Positions 13,044 to 21,059 of a stretch of 64,000 bases of DNA are shown here, piece by piece. The position numbers and the translations under genes were made by a program. How positions within the stretch are numbered: the first letter of the stretch is position 1; the number at the start of each line of letters is the position of its first letter. The stretch comes from Bryobacteraceae bacterium. GTDB lineage: Bacteria > Acidobacteriota > Terriglobia > Bryobacterales > Bryobacteraceae. The stretch spans positions 1 to 64,000 of the forward strand of contig JAIEMJ010000044.1 in assembly GCA_019752335.1 (NCBI GenBank), given 5' to 3'. The notes under the pieces are model-generated. The model did not search any database. It was not told the DNA's origin and saw only the letters and a list, made by a program, of their open reading frames with translations.

Positions 13044-13717
13044 AGCTGCTCCAGCTTCAGTTGACGTAAATCCTCCAGCAGAATGTCCGGCGCGTGGACG
13101 GCCAATTCGTCCACCGAATAGTGGCCCGTCGCCACCGCGATGGACACCATCCCATTCTGCTTCGCGGCCGCGATGTCGTTGGCGGTATCGCCAATCAAGT
13201 AAGTTGGCGTCTGCCGCGTCGCCCAACCGGCACGCCGCGCTTCGCGCGCGGCTAGGCCCGCCAAAATGCCGCGCGTGGACCCCATGTCCGCAAAGGCGCC
13301 GAGGTGAAAGTGATGGCCCAAGCCAGCCTGCTGCACCTTCCGCCAGCCAATCGCACTGAGGTTGCCCGTGACGAGGCCCACCGTGGCTTGGCGCTGGCCG
13401 AGTTTCCGCAACAAGGGCCGGACGCCGGGGCAAACACGCTGGCGCAAGTCCGGGCAACGGCGCTGGTAGAGCCGCTGCGCCCGCGCGACGATACCGGGCA
13501 TCGCGGCGCGAATCGCCGCCGGACGCTGGCCCGCTTCGCGCATCATCTGCGTGATGATGTCACGGTCCAACATGCCGTACACCGGCACGTTCTCCATACT
13601 GACGCGGACGCCGGTCTCCAGGCGCACGGCGTCTTCCAGGGCCTGTCCATGGGCGGGTCCGGCCCGGCGGAGGAGCGTGCCGTCGATGTCAAAGAGAACA
13701 AGAATGCTACCGGTCAA
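13040..13717 (-). CDS. HAD-superfamily phosphatase (phosphoglycolate-phosphatase-like)
   Basis: 225 residues with all HAD motifs: motif I LFDIDGTLL (Asp nucleophile and acid at residues 10 and 12), motif II VTGN, and motif IV YLIGDTANDIAAAK. The helical cap between motifs I and II fits the phosphoglycolate phosphatase/beta-phosphoglucomutase subfamily; which phosphate ester it uses is not determined. It is the first gene of a coupled pair with the methyltransferase (ATGA overlap at 13040-13043) and is divergent from the TonB receptor gene. Confidence 0.82.
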   Translation of the reverse strand: MTGSILVLFDIDGTLLRRAGPAHGQALEDAVRLETGVRVSMENVPVYGMLDRDIITQMMREAGQRPAAIRAAMPGIVARAQRLYQRRCPDLRQRVCPGVRPLLRKLGQRQATVGLVTGNLSAIGWRKVQQAGLGHHFHLGAFADMGSTRGILAGLAAREARRAGWATRQTPTYLIGDTANDIAAAKQNGMVSIAVATGHYSVDELAVHAPDILLEDLRQLKLEQL

Positions 13718-13768
13718 GCCCCCATTATCGCAAGCCGCGTGTGGTCATCGCTTATTCACGGCGCTTAC

Positions 13769-16708
13769 ATGACCTCGCAACTCGCGCTCGCTATGGTGAC
13801 GGTTATGCACTCTGCTCTTCGGGCGGTAACCCTTTTCAGTCTTGCGTCCAGTTTGCTGTTCCCCCAAAGCCAGGCGATCGACGGCAATGTGGAGGGCGTG
13901 GTTCGCGCGAAGGACGGCCTGGCGATTGCGGGCGCTATCGTGAAGATCACCAATCGGGGCACCGGACTGGTCCGTGAAGCCGTCACCAATGAACAAGGCC
14001 AATACCGGATTCAACTTCTTCCGGTGGGCGCCTACTCCGTCAGCGCCGCCAAGCCCGGCTTCGCAAATCAGCTTCGCCCTGAGGTCGCCCTGGGCGCGGG
14101 GCAAACCCTGACCTTGGACTTCTCCCTCCAAGTGGGCGAAGTAGCCACCACGGTAGAGGTCACCGAGGAAATTCCTGCCGTGGAAGTAGGCCGTACCAGC
14201 GCCTACTCGAATATCTATACCGCGCGCGAAGCGCGCAACCTGCCGACGGCCGGACGTAGCCTCCTGGACTTCTTCGTGATGAACCCCGCCGTGAACGCTC
14301 CGCCCCTCTCCACGGGCGGCTCCGGCACCGGCACGCCTTCGCTATCCTTTGGTGGCTTAGGTTTCCGCCAGATTAATGTCGATGGCGTTTCGAATAATAT
14401 TCAAGGGGGCGCGCGTAACTTAGTCATTAGCCAGGAATCGATCGGATCGTTTCAGTTATCGAATAACTATCCCGCGGAGTTCGGCCGCCAAGCCGCCGTA
14501 CTGATGAATTCGTTCTCCCAGTCCGGCACCAACGATCTGCATGGTTCCGGATTTCTCTTCGCCCGGAACAAGGCTCTGTCGGCCCGGCCCTTTCTGCTGG
14601 CTCCCACCGCGCCCACACCAGAATTCTTCCGTTATAACTTCGGCGGCACGGTTTCTGGTGCGCTGATCAAGAACAAGGCATTTTTCTTTGGCACCTACGA
14701 ACGCTGGACCCAGGACCTTCCCGTGATCTCCACTTTCGGCGGAACTCAGCAAGCCGCCATCGGCCGCCAATTGGGGATTCCGGCCGAGAGCTTAGGCACG
14801 TTCACCACCACCTTCCGCGCCCACACGGCGACGGCAAAGCTAGACTACGAAGTGAACGCGAAGAACCGGATCTCGGCGCGCTATAACTTTTACTTTGATC
14901 GTGAGTCCCCGCTGCAAGGCGGCCAGCAAAGCAGGGAAGTTTCCACCCGTTTCGACGAAGCGCCGCAGTCCTTTACGACGCAATTGGTGACGGCGGCCTC
15001 CCCCACGTTTCTGAACGAAGCGCGCTTTCTCTTCGCGACGCGCGGTATCGAGAACGGTGTCATCAACCCGTTGAACCCGCAGATCAACATTGCCGGCATC
15101 GGTAACTTCAATGGGAACTCCGATGGCGTCTTCTCTTCGCGGGAACGCGGCGTGCAGCTTATCGACAATGTCACCTGGAATCGCGGTGTCCACTCGTTCA
15201 AGGCGGGATTCGACTTACTGCCGGTGAATTTCCGTGAACGTACACGCAACCTGAACGGGACTTTTACTTTCGCCGGTTTGCCCGCTGTCGCCAGCGGACG
15301 AGGGGCAGTAACTCCCTTGCAGCACTATCAAAACACCGTGGATCGCGTGGTAGACCCCGCTACCGGACAACCCTTCACCTACAGCCAATTCACCCGCGCA
15401 CTGGGCCAGGAGTTTTTCAACGCCACGGTAATCAATCAAGGCTACTTCTTTCAAGACGACTGGCGCATCAATAGCCGCCTCAAGCTCCATCTCGGCCTTC
15501 GCTATGAGCTCTTCGCGCGGCCCAGCGGCTTGGCCAATCCGGACTTTCCCGCCACCGGCGTAATTCCGCAAGACAAGAATAACTGGGCGCCGCGGATATC
15601 GATGGCCTTCGATCCCCTGGGGAAAGGTAAGTCCGTCATTCGGGCCGGCTACGGAATCTACTACAACACGACGGTCGCGCAAACGTTCAACACGTTTCTG
15701 CGCGGCAACGGACGCGAAGTGCGCAATGTGACGATTACCGGTACGCAAGCGGGCGCGCCGCCCTTCACGCGCTCCACGGTACCAGCCTTCACGGGCGGCA
15801 CTCTACAGGTTTCGAACCTGAATGTCTTTGGTTCCAGCTTCGACGACCCCATGGTCCATAGCTATTTCGTTTCTTTTGACCAGGAGATTGCTCCCGGCCA
15901 TTCTCTATCCGTGCAGTACCTGGGTAACCGCGCTCGCAGTCTTCCCTATGCCTTACTTTCGAATCTGCGAGCGACGGGCACGCTACCGGATGGGCGCGTG
16001 CTCTACGGCGGTACCGCCAATCGCCCCGACCCGCGGTTTGGCAATATCTTCACGACGGTGTCGCAAGGTTATCAGAACTTCAACGGCATGTTAGTGACAC
16101 TGACGCGCCGGCTCAGCCATGGGCTTAGCTTTCAGGCCGGATATTTGTACCAAGATGTGCAGGGAGTCGCTTATGTGAACGGCGCCGGCGCCTTTACGAA
16201 CTTTGGCGCGACGGTGGTACCCGCGGATCCGGCACGGCCGGAGAGCGACCGCGGCCGCGGCGACTTCAACCAACCGCACCGGTTTACGCTTACCGCGGTT
16301 TGGGAGCCAAGGATTAGCGTCTTAAAGGGCGCGGCCTCGCAAGTACTCAACGGCTGGCAATTGTCTACGCGGACTGTGGCCCAATCCGGCCTACCGTTCT
16401 CGCCCCTGACGGGACAGGATAACAATGGCGACACGCAATTTACTGACCGGCCCGTGGGCATCGCCTATAATTCCTATCGCTTACCCACCTACGCGACGAT
16501 TGACCTCCGCCTCACCCGCAATTTCCGCATGGGCGAGCGGCGGAACCTGGAGTTACTCGGCGAAGTCTTCAACCTCACCAGCCGTCTCAATGCGACCAAT
16601 GTAAACCGCACTTGGGGACCAAATCCAATAGCGGCCACAGCTTTCAATCAACCCACGGCCGCTGAGACATCGCGGCAGTTTCAATTGGGCGTGAGATACT
16701 CCTTCTAA
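13769..16708 (+). CDS. Oar-like TonB-dependent outer-membrane receptor (1)
   Basis: About 979 residues. A signal peptide (MHSALRAVTLFSLASSLLFPQSQA from the ATG at 13805) is followed by a carboxypeptidase-regulatory-like Ig domain, NVEGVVRAKDGLAIAGAIVKITNRGTG, then a plug region with YSNIYTAREARNLPTAGRSL, and a long beta-barrel ending in an aromatic residue (GVRYSF), as outer-membrane porins do. Such proteins are thought to take up large nutrients with TonB energy. The frame is open from 13304, but the first 155 codons are antisense to the HAD gene; ATGs at 13769, 13793 and 13805 are the real choices, none with a strong ribosome-binding site. Its 3' end overlaps the converging TopoIII-RecQ gene by four bases. 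Confidence 0.85.
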   Translation: MTSQLALAMVTVMHSALRAVTLFSLASSLLFPQSQAIDGNVEGVVRAKDGLAIAGAIVKITNRGTGLVREAVTNEQGQYRIQLLPVGAYSVSAAKPGFANQLRPEVALGAGQTLTLDFSLQVGEVATTVEVTEEIPAVEVGRTSAYSNIYTAREARNLPTAGRSLLDFFVMNPAVNAPPLSTGGSGTGTPSLSFGGLGFRQINVDGVSNNIQGGARNLVISQESIGSFQLSNNYPAEFGRQAAVLMNSFSQSGTNDLHGSGFLFARNKALSARPFLLAPTAPTPEFFRYNFGGTVSGALIKNKAFFFGTYERWTQDLPVISTFGGTQQAAIGRQLGIPAESLGTFTTTFRAHTATAKLDYEVNAKNRISARYNFYFDRESPLQGGQQSREVSTRFDEAPQSFTTQLVTAASPTFLNEARFLFATRGIENGVINPLNPQINIAGIGNFNGNSDGVFSSRERGVQLIDNVTWNRGVHSFKAGFDLLPVNFRERTRNLNGTFTFAGLPAVASGRGAVTPLQHYQNTVDRVVDPATGQPFTYSQFTRALGQEFFNATVINQGYFFQDDWRINSRLKLHLGLRYELFARPSGLANPDFPATGVIPQDKNNWAPRISMAFDPLGKGKSVIRAGYGIYYNTTVAQTFNTFLRGNGREVRNVTITGTQAGAPPFTRSTVPAFTGGTLQVSNLNVFGSSFDDPMVHSYFVSFDQEIAPGHSLSVQYLGNRARSLPYALLSNLRATGTLPDGRVLYGGTANRPDPRFGNIFTTVSQGYQNFNGMLVTLTRRLSHGLSFQAGYLYQDVQGVAYVNGAGAFTNFGATVVPADPARPESDRGRGDFNQPHRFTLTAVWEPRISVLKGAASQVLNGWQLSTRTVAQSGLPFSPLTGQDNNGDTQFTDRPVGIAYNSYRLPTYATIDLRLTRNFRMGERRNLELLGEVFNLTSRLNATNVNRTWGPNPIAATAFNQPTAAETSRQFQLGVRYSF

Positions 16709-19700
16709 CTGGGCGGGTTGATGATCTTCAGCACGGCGGGGCCGTAGCGGGCGGCCAGGCGTGGGCTCACACCGGAGACGGCCACTAAGTCGTCGTAGTT
16801 GTACGGCTCGGCTTCCAGGATCGCGGTGAGCACACGGTCAGAGAAAATGCGGAAGGCCGGCACGCCTTGTTGCTTCGCTTCGGCCAAGCGCCACTGCTTC
16901 AAAGCTAGTTCGCGCGGATCAGCGGCTGCGGTGGGAGCGCGCTTGCGAGCCACCTTTACCGGAGTCTTGTCCCGGCGGCGTGTGTCGCGCGTACGCGAGG
17001 ATTTTGGCGGCGCTTCCTTCAGCAGTAACTCGACGCCGTCCAGCGCGTGCGGATCGTCGCCAGCGTTGGTGAGTGTTACTTTGCGGAAGGTAATCTCGCG
17101 GCCTTCGGTGGTAAAGGTGGCGTCGCGTATGTCGATTAAGCCCGCCCTCGCTACGGCGCCGAGTAACTGCTCAAAAGTATCCCGATCCACCTTGCCGCCG
17201 AACTCGGAGTGAAGCTTGCCGGTGGACCGCCCGTCGGACTTGCGCAACGCCGCCAACACCATGCTGACGATGCCGGTCTCTTGCGGTGTCGCTTCGCGGA
17301 AGGACTGGGCCTGCGAGGTTTCCGGTGCGCAGAAATCGCATAGGCCGCAGGACTGCTTTGCACCGGCGTGGTCACCGAAGTGGGCCACCAGCGCGCTCAT
17401 GCGGCAACGGTTCTCCTCGGTGAACTTCAACATGCTTTGGAGCTGCGTTACGCGCTGGCCGATTTGCGTCTGATAAGGAGCCCGCCAACCGTCCGTGCCG
17501 CGCGTGACGTTTTCGGCGAAGTCCACCACGGCGCCGCCGTGGATCCATAACTTCTCCAGCGCCTTGTCGAAGGTTTCGGCTTCAATCTTCAGGCGCTTCT
17601 GTAAGTCTTCCTTCGCTTCCGGCTCTTCTCGTAAGGCCGTAAAGATCTTGTCGAGTAAAGCGATATCCGGGTAGTCGCGTTCGTGGAAGTAATCGTGGGT
17701 GTGCCGGTCCGCATACGAGTGCATCAACACCGCACGTGACGGCAGACCGTCGCGGCCCGCGCGACCGATCTCCTGATAGTACCCTTCGACGCTGGCAGGC
17801 AGGGCGGTATGAATCACCGTGCGGACGTCGGCTTTGTCGATGCCCATGCCGAAGGCGATCGTCGCTACGATCACGTCGAGTTGGCCGCTGAGAAAAGCGC
17901 TCTGCACCTTCTGGCGCACGCTCGCCGCCAAGCCTGCGTGATAGGCGGCGACCGGAAAATGCCGTTTGAGTTCGTCCGCGAATTCATCCGCTTTTTTGCG
18001 CGTCGGCGCATAGACGATGGCCGGCCGGCGCGCTTTGTCGCTCAGGAATTCGCGGACTAGGTCTACGCGTTGCCCCGGCGGAGCTTCCACCACTTCAATC
18101 GCTAGATTGTCGCGCCGGAAGCCTTGGATGAAGCGCCCTTGGTCGCCCAAGTTCAACTGTGAGGCAATGTCGTCCTGCACGATGGGCGTGGCGGTGGCGG
18201 TAAGGGCGATGACCGGCGCGGGCCGCAATAGCGGTAAGTGCTGGCCTAGAGTACGGTAGTCCGGCCGGAAGTCGTGGCCCCATTGCGAAATACAATGCGC
18301 CTCATCGACCGCTACTAACGTAGGCTTGCGCTTGGCGAGCATTTCCGGAAAACCGGGAACGCGTAAGCGTTCGGGGGCGATAAACAGAAATTGTAAGTTG
18401 CCCTGTAAGTAATCGATACAGGCTTGGCGCGAATCGGCGCGGTCACGGCCGGAGTGAATACGCTCGACGGCGAAGCCGCGCTCCTTTAGCTTGGCGACTT
18501 GGTCCTCCATCAGCGCGATCAGCGGACTGATGACCAAGGTGGTGCCGCCCCGCGCGAGACCGGGTAATTGGTAGCACAAGCTTTTGCCGGCGCCGGTGGG
18601 CATGACGAGTAAGACGTCGTGCCCTTCCACCACCGCGCGGCAGACGGCTTCCTGGCTGGGCCGGAATTGCGAAAAGCCGAAGGCCGATTTCAGCAGGGCT
18701 GGTAAGTCGTCCGTTTGGCCTTCCCACTCTCTGTGAACCACCGTTTCCTTATGACCCCTCACTTCATGACCCCTCACTTCGTTCGGGGCTTGGTCGCGCG
18801 TAGCAGTTGGTGCGGCGGGCGAAGTCTGCGAGACCTTGCCGACTACGTCGCGTACATAGTCCTCAATGCCCTTCACAAAGGGCGGCAGATGGGCTTGGCC
18901 GCGCTCAATGCGCTTCAAGAAGGCTTCCCACTGGCCCGTCATCGCGGGGCTCTTCACTTCGGGATGGACCACTTCAATCAGGTGAATCCCTTTGTCGGTA
19001 GCTTCCAGCGTTTTGCCCTCGCGCTGGATGTAGCCGCGCTTCAGCAGCACTTCGATGATGTTGGCGCGGGTGGCGGGCGTGCCCAGGCCAGTCTCCTTCA
19101 TGGCGTCCGACAGTTCCTTCTCGTCGAGCGTCTTGCCGGCCGTCTGCATGGCCGTGAGTAACGTGGCGTCGTTGAAACGCTTGGGAGGGCGGGTTTTCTT
19201 AAGGACGGACTCCGCGGCCAGCACGTCCTGCGCTTGCCCAGCCTGCAGCGTCACCGGCAAAGTCTGCTCCGCGTCTTTACCTTTTTTCTCGACCGCGATG
19301 TCGAGGACTTTCCAGCCCATCTGGCGGATGATGGTGCCCGTGGAGTGGTAGCGATCCGTAAAGCCAGGATTGGTGATCAGCGTGATGACGGTAGTTACTT
19401 CGGTGAGGAAATCGTCATGCCAGGCGGAGAGTAAGCGGCGGCAGACTAAGTCGTATAAGCGCTTTTCATCTTCCGAGAGACGAGCCTTGCTGGGCGAGGT
19501 CGCCGTGGGAATAATGGCGTGGTGGTCAGTAATCTTCGTATCGTCCACATAGCGCGCGCCCAGCGGACTCCCCGTGCCGGGCGCGAGTAAGTCCGCATAA
19601 GCCGGACTGATGGCCGCGACGACGCCGGGTAGCGTCTTGGCGATGGCTTGCGAGAGATGGCGGCTGTCGGTACGGGGATAGCTGAGTAACTTGTGGGTTT

Positions 19701-20673
19701 CGTACAAGGCCTGCGCGACGTCCAGCGTCTTCTGCGCGCTGAAGCCGTACAGGCGGTTGGCGTGGCGTTGTAACTCTGCTAAGTCATACAAGCCCGGCGG
19801 ACTCATACGCTTCTGCTCGGGCTGCACGGACTCAATCCGGGCGTCGCCCGATTTCGCCCGGGCTACCACTGCCTTGGCTTCTTCGGGCGCCGCTGGCAGG
19901 CGCATCGCTTGGGAGAGCGTCTCGTTCTTGGCCACGGGGCGGAAACAGGTGCCCTCGTACTTCGGGCGCGGCGCAGTGCTGTCCTTCGGCGAGAAGGTCG
20001 CAACGACTTCGCGGTATTCCTCGGGAACGAAGGCTCGCACGGCGAGTTCGCGCTCCACGATCATGGCCAGGGTGGGAGTTTGTACGCGGCCGACGGAGAG
20101 CTCTTCGTCGAAGGCGAGGGAGTAAGCCCGTGAGAGGTTCATGCCGACGAGCCAGTCCGCGCGGCTGCGGCCGCGGGCGGCGTCGCCGAGGCCGTCGTAT
20201 TCCTGGGCGCTCTTCAAGCTATCGAAGCCGGCGCGGATGGCATCGGCGGTGAGCGACGAGATCCACAGGCGATCTACCGGTTTGTTGGTGTGGGCGGCGT
20301 CGTAGATGTAGCGGAAGATGAGTTCACCTTCGCGCCCGGCGTCGGTGGCGCAGACGACGCGGCCCACTTTGGGGGAATTCAGAATCTGGCGGACCACTTC
20401 GAATTGGTCCTTCGTTTTGTCGTAGACGACGAGTGGCCAGTCGTCGGGCAGCATCGGCAGGAGGTGCTTGCGCCATTGCTTCCACTCGGGGCGAATCTCA
20501 TGCGGCTGGGCGAGCGAGACCAGATGGCCGATGGCCCAGGTGACGATGTAACCGCCGCCGTGCAGGTAGCCGTCGCCTTTCTGGTGGGCGCCGAGGACTT
20601 TGGCAATATCGCGGGCGACGGAGGGCTTTTCCGCCACGACGGCAATGGTGTGAGCTACGGCAGGGGTGGACAA
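16705..20673 (-). CDS. Single-chain fusion of DNA topoisomerase III and RecQ helicase
   Basis: 1322 residues in one open frame. Residues 1-600 are a type IA topoisomerase of the TopB kind: TOPRIM start VVAEKPSVA (12-20), ATDAGREGELIFR (109-121), VGRVQTPT, and the catalytic tyrosine in SYPRTDSR (Tyr332). Residues 601-655 are a low-complexity linker with a tandem EVRGH-EVRGH. Residues 656-1120 are RecQ: Walker A MPTGAGKS (691-698), DEAH (790-793), GRAGRDG, and the four-cysteine zinc site ending CGLCDFC. A winged-helix region (about 1130-1200) and an HRDC domain (about 1253-1322) complete RecQ. The zinc ribbons at the end of many TopA/TopB proteins are absent. RecQ and Topo III act together to dissolve recombination intermediates; here they are one polypeptide. 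The stop overlaps the converging TonB gene. Confidence 0.93.
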   Translation of the reverse strand: MSTPAVAHTIAVVAEKPSVARDIAKVLGAHQKGDGYLHGGGYIVTWAIGHLVSLAQPHEIRPEWKQWRKHLLPMLPDDWPLVVYDKTKDQFEVVRQILNSPKVGRVVCATDAGREGELIFRYIYDAAHTNKPVDRLWISSLTADAIRAGFDSLKSAQEYDGLGDAARGRSRADWLVGMNLSRAYSLAFDEELSVGRVQTPTLAMIVERELAVRAFVPEEYREVVATFSPKDSTAPRPKYEGTCFRPVAKNETLSQAMRLPAAPEEAKAVVARAKSGDARIESVQPEQKRMSPPGLYDLAELQRHANRLYGFSAQKTLDVAQALYETHKLLSYPRTDSRHLSQAIAKTLPGVVAAISPAYADLLAPGTGSPLGARYVDDTKITDHHAIIPTATSPSKARLSEDEKRLYDLVCRRLLSAWHDDFLTEVTTVITLITNPGFTDRYHSTGTIIRQMGWKVLDIAVEKKGKDAEQTLPVTLQAGQAQDVLAAESVLKKTRPPKRFNDATLLTAMQTAGKTLDEKELSDAMKETGLGTPATRANIIEVLLKRGYIQREGKTLEATDKGIHLIEVVHPEVKSPAMTGQWEAFLKRIERGQAHLPPFVKGIEDYVRDVVGKVSQTSPAAPTATRDQAPNEVRGHEVRGHKETVVHREWEGQTDDLPALLKSAFGFSQFRPSQEAVCRAVVEGHDVLLVMPTGAGKSLCYQLPGLARGGTTLVISPLIALMEDQVAKLKERGFAVERIHSGRDRADSRQACIDYLQGNLQFLFIAPERLRVPGFPEMLAKRKPTLVAVDEAHCISQWGHDFRPDYRTLGQHLPLLRPAPVIALTATATPIVQDDIASQLNLGDQGRFIQGFRRDNLAIEVVEAPPGQRVDLVREFLSDKARRPAIVYAPTRKKADEFADELKRHFPVAAYHAGLAASVRQKVQSAFLSGQLDVIVATIAFGMGIDKADVRTVIHTALPASVEGYYQEIGRAGRDGLPSRAVLMHSYADRHTHDYFHERDYPDIALLDKIFTALREEPEAKEDLQKRLKIEAETFDKALEKLWIHGGAVVDFAENVTRGTDGWRAPYQTQIGQRVTQLQSMLKFTEENRCRMSALVAHFGDHAGAKQSCGLCDFCAPETSQAQSFREATPQETGIVSMVLAALRKSDGRSTGKLHSEFGGKVDRDTFEQLLGAVARAGLIDIRDATFTTEGREITFRKVTLTNAGDDPHALDGVELLLKEAPPKSSRTRDTRRRDKTPVKVARKRAPTAAADPRELALKQWRLAEAKQQGVPAFRIFSDRVLTAILEAEPYNYDDLVAVSGVSPRLAARYGPAVLKIINPPS
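18751..18788. repeat. Tandem 15-bp repeat and hairpin in the TopoIII-RecQ linker
   Basis: atgacccctcacttc occurs twice in tandem (18751-18765 and 18766-18780). The second copy runs into gttcgggg, giving a CCCC...GGGG hairpin of the type usually seen between genes. In the protein it encodes the EVRGH-EVRGH repeat of the linker between the two enzymes. Confidence 0.75.
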
Positions 20674-20717: not shown

Positions 20718-21059
20718 ATGAGTTCCGCTTGGATTCGCGCCTTCTGCCTGTCACTGCCGCACGCCACCGAGGACGTGAAGTGGGAGAAGGACCTCGTGTT
20801 TTGTATCGGAGCGAAGATGTTCGCGGTGACGTGCCTGGAGCCGCACACGGTCTCGCTGTCTTTCAAATGCACGCCCGAGAGCTTCGCTGAACTCGTCGAG
20901 CGGCCAGGCGTCATTCCCGCGCCGTATCTGGCGCGAGCCCATTGGGTAGCCCTCGAAAGTGAGGACGCTTTGTCGCGCCGGGAACTGGAGCCGTTGTTGC
21001 GCACGGCCTACGAACTGGTGTTGGCGAAGCTGCCCAAGCGCGTCCGCGACGGCTTATAG
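20718..21059 (+). CDS. MmcQ/YjbR family protein
   Basis: 113-residue soluble protein of the MmcQ/YjbR (DUF419) family, recognised from CLSLPHATEDVKWEKDLVFCIGAKMFAV near the N terminus and the PAPYLARAHWVAL stretch; the length is usual for the family. Members have a CyaY-like DNA-binding-type fold but no agreed function. It starts a plus-strand run: its stop directly abuts the ATG of acetate kinase, so co-transcription is likely. It is divergent from the TopoIII-RecQ gene, with 44 bases between the two starts. Confidence 0.82.
   Translation: MSSAWIRAFCLSLPHATEDVKWEKDLVFCIGAKMFAVTCLEPHTVSLSFKCTPESFAELVERPGVIPAPYLARAHWVALESEDALSRRELEPLLRTAYELVLAKLPKRVRDGL

Follow-up and report, generated by a model that had tools for sequence, protein, structure and literature searches.

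A topoisomerase III-RecQ helicase fusion in a Bryobacteraceae bacterium, probably a single-chain toposome, with relatives in records of several phyla

The stretch of DNA analyzed here, referred to as the window, comprises 64,000 nucleotides of a Bryobacteraceae bacterium (contig JAIEMJ010000044.1 of assembly GCA_019752335.1, positions 1 to 64,000). A gene on its minus strand, at 16705..20673 (1322 codons plus stop, delimited by open reading frame [ORF] analysis and by full-length relatives), encodes a single chain that starts with a TopB-type topoisomerase III and continues through a disordered linker into a RecQ helicase. We conclude that the gene probably encodes a single-chain RecQ-topoisomerase III “toposome,” in which single strands exposed by the helicase are handed to a type IA topoisomerase on a flexible tether. 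An earlier note on this DNA had claimed one open frame with both enzymes, leaving the strand unstated, and the claim holds: from the TTG start at 20673 to the stop that ends at 16705 the frame is open throughout, with zero internal stops, and the interval 18700-18800, which the note had singled out, contains neither a stop nor a change of frame. Chance as the origin of the arrangement is excluded, because full-length single-frame relatives exist at 53-83% identity.

The Pfam matches along the protein, every one above its cut-off, run in the order Toprim, Topoisom_bac, DEAD, Helicase_C, RecQ_Zn_bind, and HRDC (all coordinates that follow are on the minus strand). The Toprim domain (PF01751; residues 12-140, 20254..20640) has E15-K16 and the D111-A-G-R-E115 motif, and the type IA topoisomerase domains (PF01131; residues 159-599, 18877..20199), recognized also by TIGR01056 and by their E. 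coli Topo III fold, include the codon of the catalytic Tyr332 of YPRTDSR at 19678..19680. The flexible linker (residues 620-648, 18730..18816) leads into the RecQ half, where the first RecA domain (PF00270; residues 671-830, 18184..18663), with its Walker A motif at 692-698 and DEAH at 790-793, is followed by the second RecA domain (PF00271; residues 870-976, 17746..18066), the zinc-binding subdomain (PF16124; residues 1073-1115, 17329..17457), a winged helix where RQC usually lies (residues about 1130-1201, 17071..17286), and an HRDC domain (PF00570; residues 1257-1318, 16720..16905). The zinc site and HRDC are matched by Pfam; the Pfam RQC domain gave no match in the fusion protein at E 0.001, and the winged helix is taken from the predicted models only. 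Of five fusions scanned with Pfam, two have HRDC, and the three from Sorangium, Nannocystis, and Competibacteraceae lack it.

The topoisomerase half scores above the cut-offs of two curated TopB models (TIGR01056, 599 against 515.75 bits; PRK07726, 670.5 against 597 bits), and the helicase half scores above that of the RecQ family model TIGR00614 (391.9 against 219.8 bits). Since its scores for the canonical RecQ equivalogs fall below the cut-offs (TIGR01389, 487.8 against 640.2; PRK11057, 384.1 against 1015), the RecQ half belongs to a RecQ subfamily outside the canonical RecQ group.

In AlphaFold2 models, residues 647-1322 (76 sequences) were predicted with a mean predicted local distance difference test score (pLDDT) of 89.8 and a predicted template modeling score (pTM) of 0.82, and residues 1-1200 (60 fusions) with values of 90.0 and 0.56; in the latter model residues 620-648, the linker, have a pLDDT of <50. 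By these model scores both halves are well predicted, and their placement relative to each other is not, so that at a pTM of 0.56 no mechanism can be read from the predicted arrangement. A Foldseek search with the 1-1200 model returned E. coli Topo III at all of ranks 1-8 (template modeling score of 0.86, by target, for 1d6m), and the VIA-align rows for the same model include RecQ-family as well as type IA topoisomerase chains. In VIA-align the topoisomerase half matched E. coli Topo III 1i7d with Z 37.6 and a root mean square deviation (rmsd) of 3.9 over 590 aligned residues. The RecQ half matched the D. radiodurans RecQ core 4q48_B with Z 30.9 and an rmsd of 5.6 over 472, and it also resembles the RecQ cores of E. 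coli and others.

The predicted models show two winged helices. One follows the zinc site, as usual, and the other, at residues 1004-1058 (17500..17664), is extra; it separates the second RecA domain from the zinc site and is left unmarked by Pfam. We considered the extra winged helix as a specific feature of the fusion and rejected this. The spacing from GRAGRDG to CxxC is 129-137 residues in 134 of 140 RecQs of the fusion type, stand-alone proteins among them (the motif was not found in the other 6), and a similarly long spacing of 137-154 residues occurs in 4 of 14 more distant RecQs, next to 4 with 66-73 residues and 6 in which the motif was not found. Because the spacing recurs in stand-alone RecQs, the extra winged helix is a trait of this RecQ subgroup and not of the fusion.

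Both halves look catalytically intact, as the earlier note had proposed from their motifs; the judgment rests on alignments of 18 and 60 fusion sequences, in both of which the TopB hallmark residues E15, D111, E115, Y332, and R334 are invariant. In the 18-sequence alignment the P-loop (692-698, with A695 near-invariant), DEAH (790-793), and Cys1090, 1109, 1112, and 1115 of the zinc site are likewise invariant; the four cysteines and the catalytic residues of either half are invariant in the 60-sequence alignment as well. Among 94 fused rows, Walker A, DEAH, TAT, GRAGRDG, and the zinc motif are found in all 87 RecQ halves longer than 500 residues. DAGREGE is present in all 108 TopBs of the fusion clade described below, and YPR(T/S)D(S/C) in 103 of them, the remaining five likewise reading YPRT. 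A degenerate TOPRIM signature (DxGxE for DxDxE) was rejected as a peculiarity of the fusion, the D-A-G-R-E form being common to all 20 stand-alone TopBs compared.

Against a same-genus relative, the ratio of nonsynonymous to synonymous substitution rates (dN/dS) is 0.07 for the topoisomerase half, 0.03 for the RecQ core with the zinc site, and 0.30 for the winged helix and HRDC, figures that are rough because synonymous sites are near saturation. As judged from these comparisons, purifying selection acts on both halves while the linker drifts. The linker of the window protein is 29% identical to that of the same relative, and in 83 fusions this segment, rich in Ala, Pro, Ser, and Arg, ranges in length from 14 to 370 residues, with a median of 46. 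The earlier note had suggested that the covalent fusion could couple strand opening to strand passage, and a tight coupling of this kind is not supported by these properties; because the linker is predicted to be disordered, varies in length, and is unconserved, it is better described as a flexible tether than as a gear.

The linker of the window protein contains a 15-bp tandem duplication (GAAGTGAGGGGTCAT twice, 18751..18780), and the encoded repeat is missing from the linker of the same-genus relative. A dispersed repeat as the source of the linker was rejected, there being few other copies of the 15-bp unit in the genome. The duplication looks local, because the genome has only one further exact copy and three copies with one mismatch, and slippage of the duplication may be a source of length change. 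The linkers of Nannocystis (L109, L112, and L119) run to about 330-370 residues, several times as long as usual.

A type IA topoisomerase requires single-stranded DNA, which RecQ helicases are able to provide. In the toposome that we propose, the RecQ half would open recombination or replication intermediates by ATP-driven unwinding, presumably 3'-5' as in its family, and so expose single strands; the flexible linker would hold the TopB half beside this single-stranded substrate; and the TopB half would cut via Tyr332, pass the other strand, and reseal. The likely outcome would be that hemicatenanes and precatenanes are removed and that converged double Holliday junctions are dissolved without a crossover. 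Both activities, the coupling of the halves, and the substrates are what we infer in this scheme. The two families are known partners, as the earlier note had stated. A review (PMC7140829) reports that Topo III is stimulated by RecQ in vitro and that a toposome has been proposed.

The genome that contains the window (7.2 Mb, 97% complete) has no other close TopB or RecQ in a search at E 1e-5. A further match to the topoisomerase half, 29% identical and in an 893-amino-acid (aa) frame, reads like TopA, and two weak matches to the helicase half are 25% and 34% identical. We searched a set of 61 genomes, this one and 60 relatives, with the curated TopB model at E 1e-100 and found TopB in 31, with one match each. 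In 25 genomes the TopB lies within an open frame of 1307-1542 aa. Of the six others, three extend to a contig end (G058, G016, and G024), two are separated from the helicase half by a frame break (G020 and G038), and a single one, taken up below, is free-standing. At this threshold the search missed a 1450-aa fusion frame in G008 and pieces at contig ends in G019 and G055. One genome (G003) has, in addition to the fusion, a second TopB start (residues 9-234, 76% identical) that is cut by the contig end, and a second copy is possible there.

Free TopB is nearly absent from the close relatives. The earlier note had asked whether, in other Acidobacteriota, the fusion occurs where separate topB and recQ genes are absent. 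For topB the answer is positive, given the proportion of fusion-length frames (25 of 31) and the lone free-standing copy, and for recQ it is mixed: among the matches listed, a separate RecQ-like gene accompanies the fusion in 3 (G014, G015, and G036) of the 13 genomes that have one full-length fusion, and further RecQ-like genes occur in 10 of 14 genomes from the wider survey described next. The latter 14 were picked for holding the fusion, and among the matches listed they have no second close TopB, their other topoisomerase matches being 28-33% identical.

A scan of a named genome collection confirmed at least 579 related loci, of which the best 80 were chosen by similarity to the fusion alignment, a choice biased toward fusions. 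A single stop-to-stop frame spans both halves in 69 of these 80, a count that includes L094 despite a break inside its TopB; of the other 11, eight run off the contig, two have frame breaks (L089 and L101), and one is helicase-truncated (L093). The isolate genomes with the fusion are all Myxococcota, namely, two of Sorangium cellulosum, three of Nannocystis, and one of Corallococcus sicarius, whose locus is cut at the contig start. Metagenome-assembled genomes (MAGs) with the fusion are labeled as Acidobacteriota, Myxococcota, Planctomycetota, Bdellovibrionota, Thermodesulfobacteriota (one Geobacter MAG), and Pseudomonadota (three Competibacteraceae MAGs), with the proviso that the labels of single MAGs can be wrong. 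With records labeled with six phyla, the fusion is not a singular case.

These records also bear on the idea that the architecture is an artefact, produced by a mis-assembled frame or by two genes run together. Some draft genomes do have loci whose frame is broken, close to the junction (L101 and L023, on the same contig, and L152) or within TopB (L089 and L094), but independent assemblies, six of them isolate genomes, carry the fusion in single frames. We therefore reject mis-joined frames as an account of the architecture, and an artefact can scarcely be credited.

Further sampling gave counts that are lower bounds, because five candidates per genome were scored in one sample and two in the other. 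At least 17 of 112 genomes in a Myxococcota-centered sample (five candidates) list a single-frame fusion, and in a phylum sample of 297 genomes (two candidates) a full fusion occurs in at least 6, the genome of the window included, and a truncated fusion in at least 2; a seventh full fusion (G212, 1517 aa) was recognized on closer inspection. Stand-alone RecQs of the fusion type are common in the phylum sample. In the Myxococcota-centered sample, G456 has the fusion plus a separate TopB at 40% identity, and the TopBs listed in other genomes are 37-49% identical and without RecQ where the sequence was inspected; the exception is G451, with a TopB at 58% and a RecQ, both running off contig ends. 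A stand-alone-type TopB (41%) in G403 (L238:353-6163) is part of an open frame of 1937 aa in which RecQ gave no match. Plasmids and viruses were rejected as carriers of the fusion: of 29 matching plasmid records, not one covered more than 80% of the query, and 15 loci on viral contigs matched, each over one half only.

The trees of the two halves differ. In a FastTree tree of 128 TopBs, all 97 two-half rows, three helicase-truncated ones included, fall into one group of 108 rows with a support of 99, together with eight rows at contig edges and three unfused rows nested within, of which two have frame breaks; the remaining 20 rows, all stand-alone, are outside this group. For RecQ, a tree uniting all 32 fused rows of a 57-row set was rejected by the approximately unbiased test (p 0.000175), in an analysis that used a quick tree, 57 rows chosen from 154, and a group named after the first tree. 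The 57-row tree has six changes, at least five of them forced by well-supported branches; it places the f53 RecQs at its base, and the large FastTree tree of RecQs places them differently. The distances of the two halves nevertheless correlate (r 0.77; none of 999 permutations as high) over the 83 fused rows in which both halves are long enough. Because the fused TopBs form one clade and the fused RecQs are interleaved with stand-alone RecQs, the sequences are best fitted by one fusion, several losses of the TopB half, and transfer between phyla. TopB remnants, sought as proof of loss upstream of stand-alone RecQs at 41 loci, were not obtained: 38 loci gave only matches of E 1 or worse in flanks of 0.17-2.6 kb, and the other 3 (L023, L101, and L152) are split fusions with a frame break. 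With no remnants beside those 38 RecQs, repeated exchange of the RecQ half, instead of loss of the TopB half, is possible.

Several observations weigh against a joint action of the two halves as a toposome. AlphaFold settles no arrangement of the halves. Stand-alone RecQs nest among the fused RecQs in the large FastTree tree of RecQs, e.g., family f8 (Acidobacteriaceae, judging by L093) and a genus of f3, so that the fused RecQs are no clade. Three genomes keep TopB with only a degenerate helicase piece (L029:1450-4074, L030:1393-4086, and L093:2-2626), one close relative (G018) has the free-standing TopB mentioned above, and 27 of the 61 genomes show no TopB in both searches combined, with G008, G019, and G055 counted as holding it; TopB is therefore dispensable for the lineage. 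The review cited above (PMC7140829) describes E. coli RecQ and Topo III as without physical interaction and their joint action on RecA-made intermediates as poorly supported.

In L029, L030, and L093, which are 90-93% identical, an intact TopB is followed by the first RecA domain only, where the frame ends, and this domain is degenerate (DEAH to EEAE, TAT to TREQT). It may be a pseudo-helicase module. One of these genomes is named Acidobacteriaceae, and a long, separate match to RecQ is listed for two. At the G018 locus (L151, about 1500-2070, minus), the frame stops just after TopB and two small ORFs follow, toxin-antitoxin-like by eye, as if replacing the RecQ half; this genome is 7% contaminated.

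An alternative is that the tether gives only co-expression and a 1:1 supply of two enzymes that work on separate substrates, as largely seems so in E. coli, whose genetics separates TopB from RecQ (PMC7140829). A disordered linker free in length and sequence and the independent loss of the halves would suit this explanation, but it sits poorly with the fusion-clade TopB, which almost never occurs alone in close relatives, and with a fusion that has persisted, its two active sites intact, across records of several phyla. We regard co-expression alone as unlikely and favor the single-chain toposome. That the same fusion is present in many other bacteria points to a true working pair in those organisms, and the natural fusion is independent evidence for joint action, at least in the lineages that bear it.

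A different alternative concerns the main task, which would be decatenation or the removal of precatenanes at the replication forks of cells that lack topoisomerase IV, rather than recombination. Exactly one GyrA/ParC-like match was found in 58 of the 61 genomes, that of the window included (one such match is at G000:C17:137014-138333), which we read as gyrase without topoisomerase IV, an enzyme these genomes seem to lack. However, a single type IIA gene occurs with or without the fusion, and because many genomes with one type IIA gene show no TopB, the fusion cannot be the sole, indispensable decatenase of the lineage. Replication as the main task is, in our view, distinctly improbable.

Upstream of the fusion gene is a small divergent ORF (20718-21059) and, past it, genes that resemble acetate kinase and phosphoketolase; downstream is a convergent ORF (13304-16708) like a TonB-type receptor. 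The names are from reading the translations.

In reverse gyrase the helicase comes first. The fusion has the opposite order, topoisomerase first by Pfam, just as the earlier note had observed. The two proteins share a superfamily 2 (SF2) helicase module and a type IA topoisomerase in one chain, reverse gyrase being the described fusion of this kind (PMC8185306), and one might imagine a reverse-gyrase-like machine that changes supercoiling in one direction with ATP. Unlike reverse gyrase, however, the fusion has the zinc-site, winged-helix, and HRDC modules of RecQ and an unstructured, flexible linker, and it scores 108.7 bits with TIGR01054, against a cut-off of 471.7. On this score and on domain order we reject a relationship to reverse gyrase, and an activity of that sort is very improbable.

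Bacterial RecQ and Topo III as one unit are a matter of dispute, with stimulation in vitro set against weak genetic support in E. coli, in the account given by PMC7140829. The E. coli proteins are of the same two families and have a proposed joint action, but they are separate proteins, whereas the fusion is one chain. As a one-protein system found in myxobacterial isolates such as Sorangium and Nannocystis, the fusion makes bacterial dissolution directly testable, and the repeated loss of one half provides natural separation-of-function variants. A broader claim would be that it is a horizontally spread single-chain dissolvase, the only TopB of many Acidobacteriota and Myxococcota, acting on recombination and replication linkages without topoisomerase IV, and thus the BLM-TOP3A counterpart missing in E. 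coli; we put this forward tentatively, as a rather doubtful extension of the toposome reading.

In searches confined to the open PubMed Central library, to the exclusion of subscription journals and preprints, none of the papers listed describes a natural TopB-RecQ fusion in its title or abstract opening, although a mention deeper in a text is possible. The fusion is not new to databases, because the sequences are public in finished genomes. The eukaryotic dissolvasome (Sgs1-Top3-Rmi1 and BLM-TOP3A-RMI1/2) likewise pairs a RecQ-family helicase with Topo III, but it does so noncovalently and with Rmi1; the holding of Topo III to a RecQ helicase that marks these RTR/BTR complexes is present in the fusion covalently, in one frame. 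Bennett and Wang reportedly engineered yeast Top3-Sgs1 fusions in 2001, which also link Topo III to RecQ covalently but are artificial and made of yeast proteins. PMC3905885 has an engineered Top3-Sgs1 fusion among its references. Set beside these systems, the fusion is a new variant of the known RecQ-Topo III partnership and no new kind of system.

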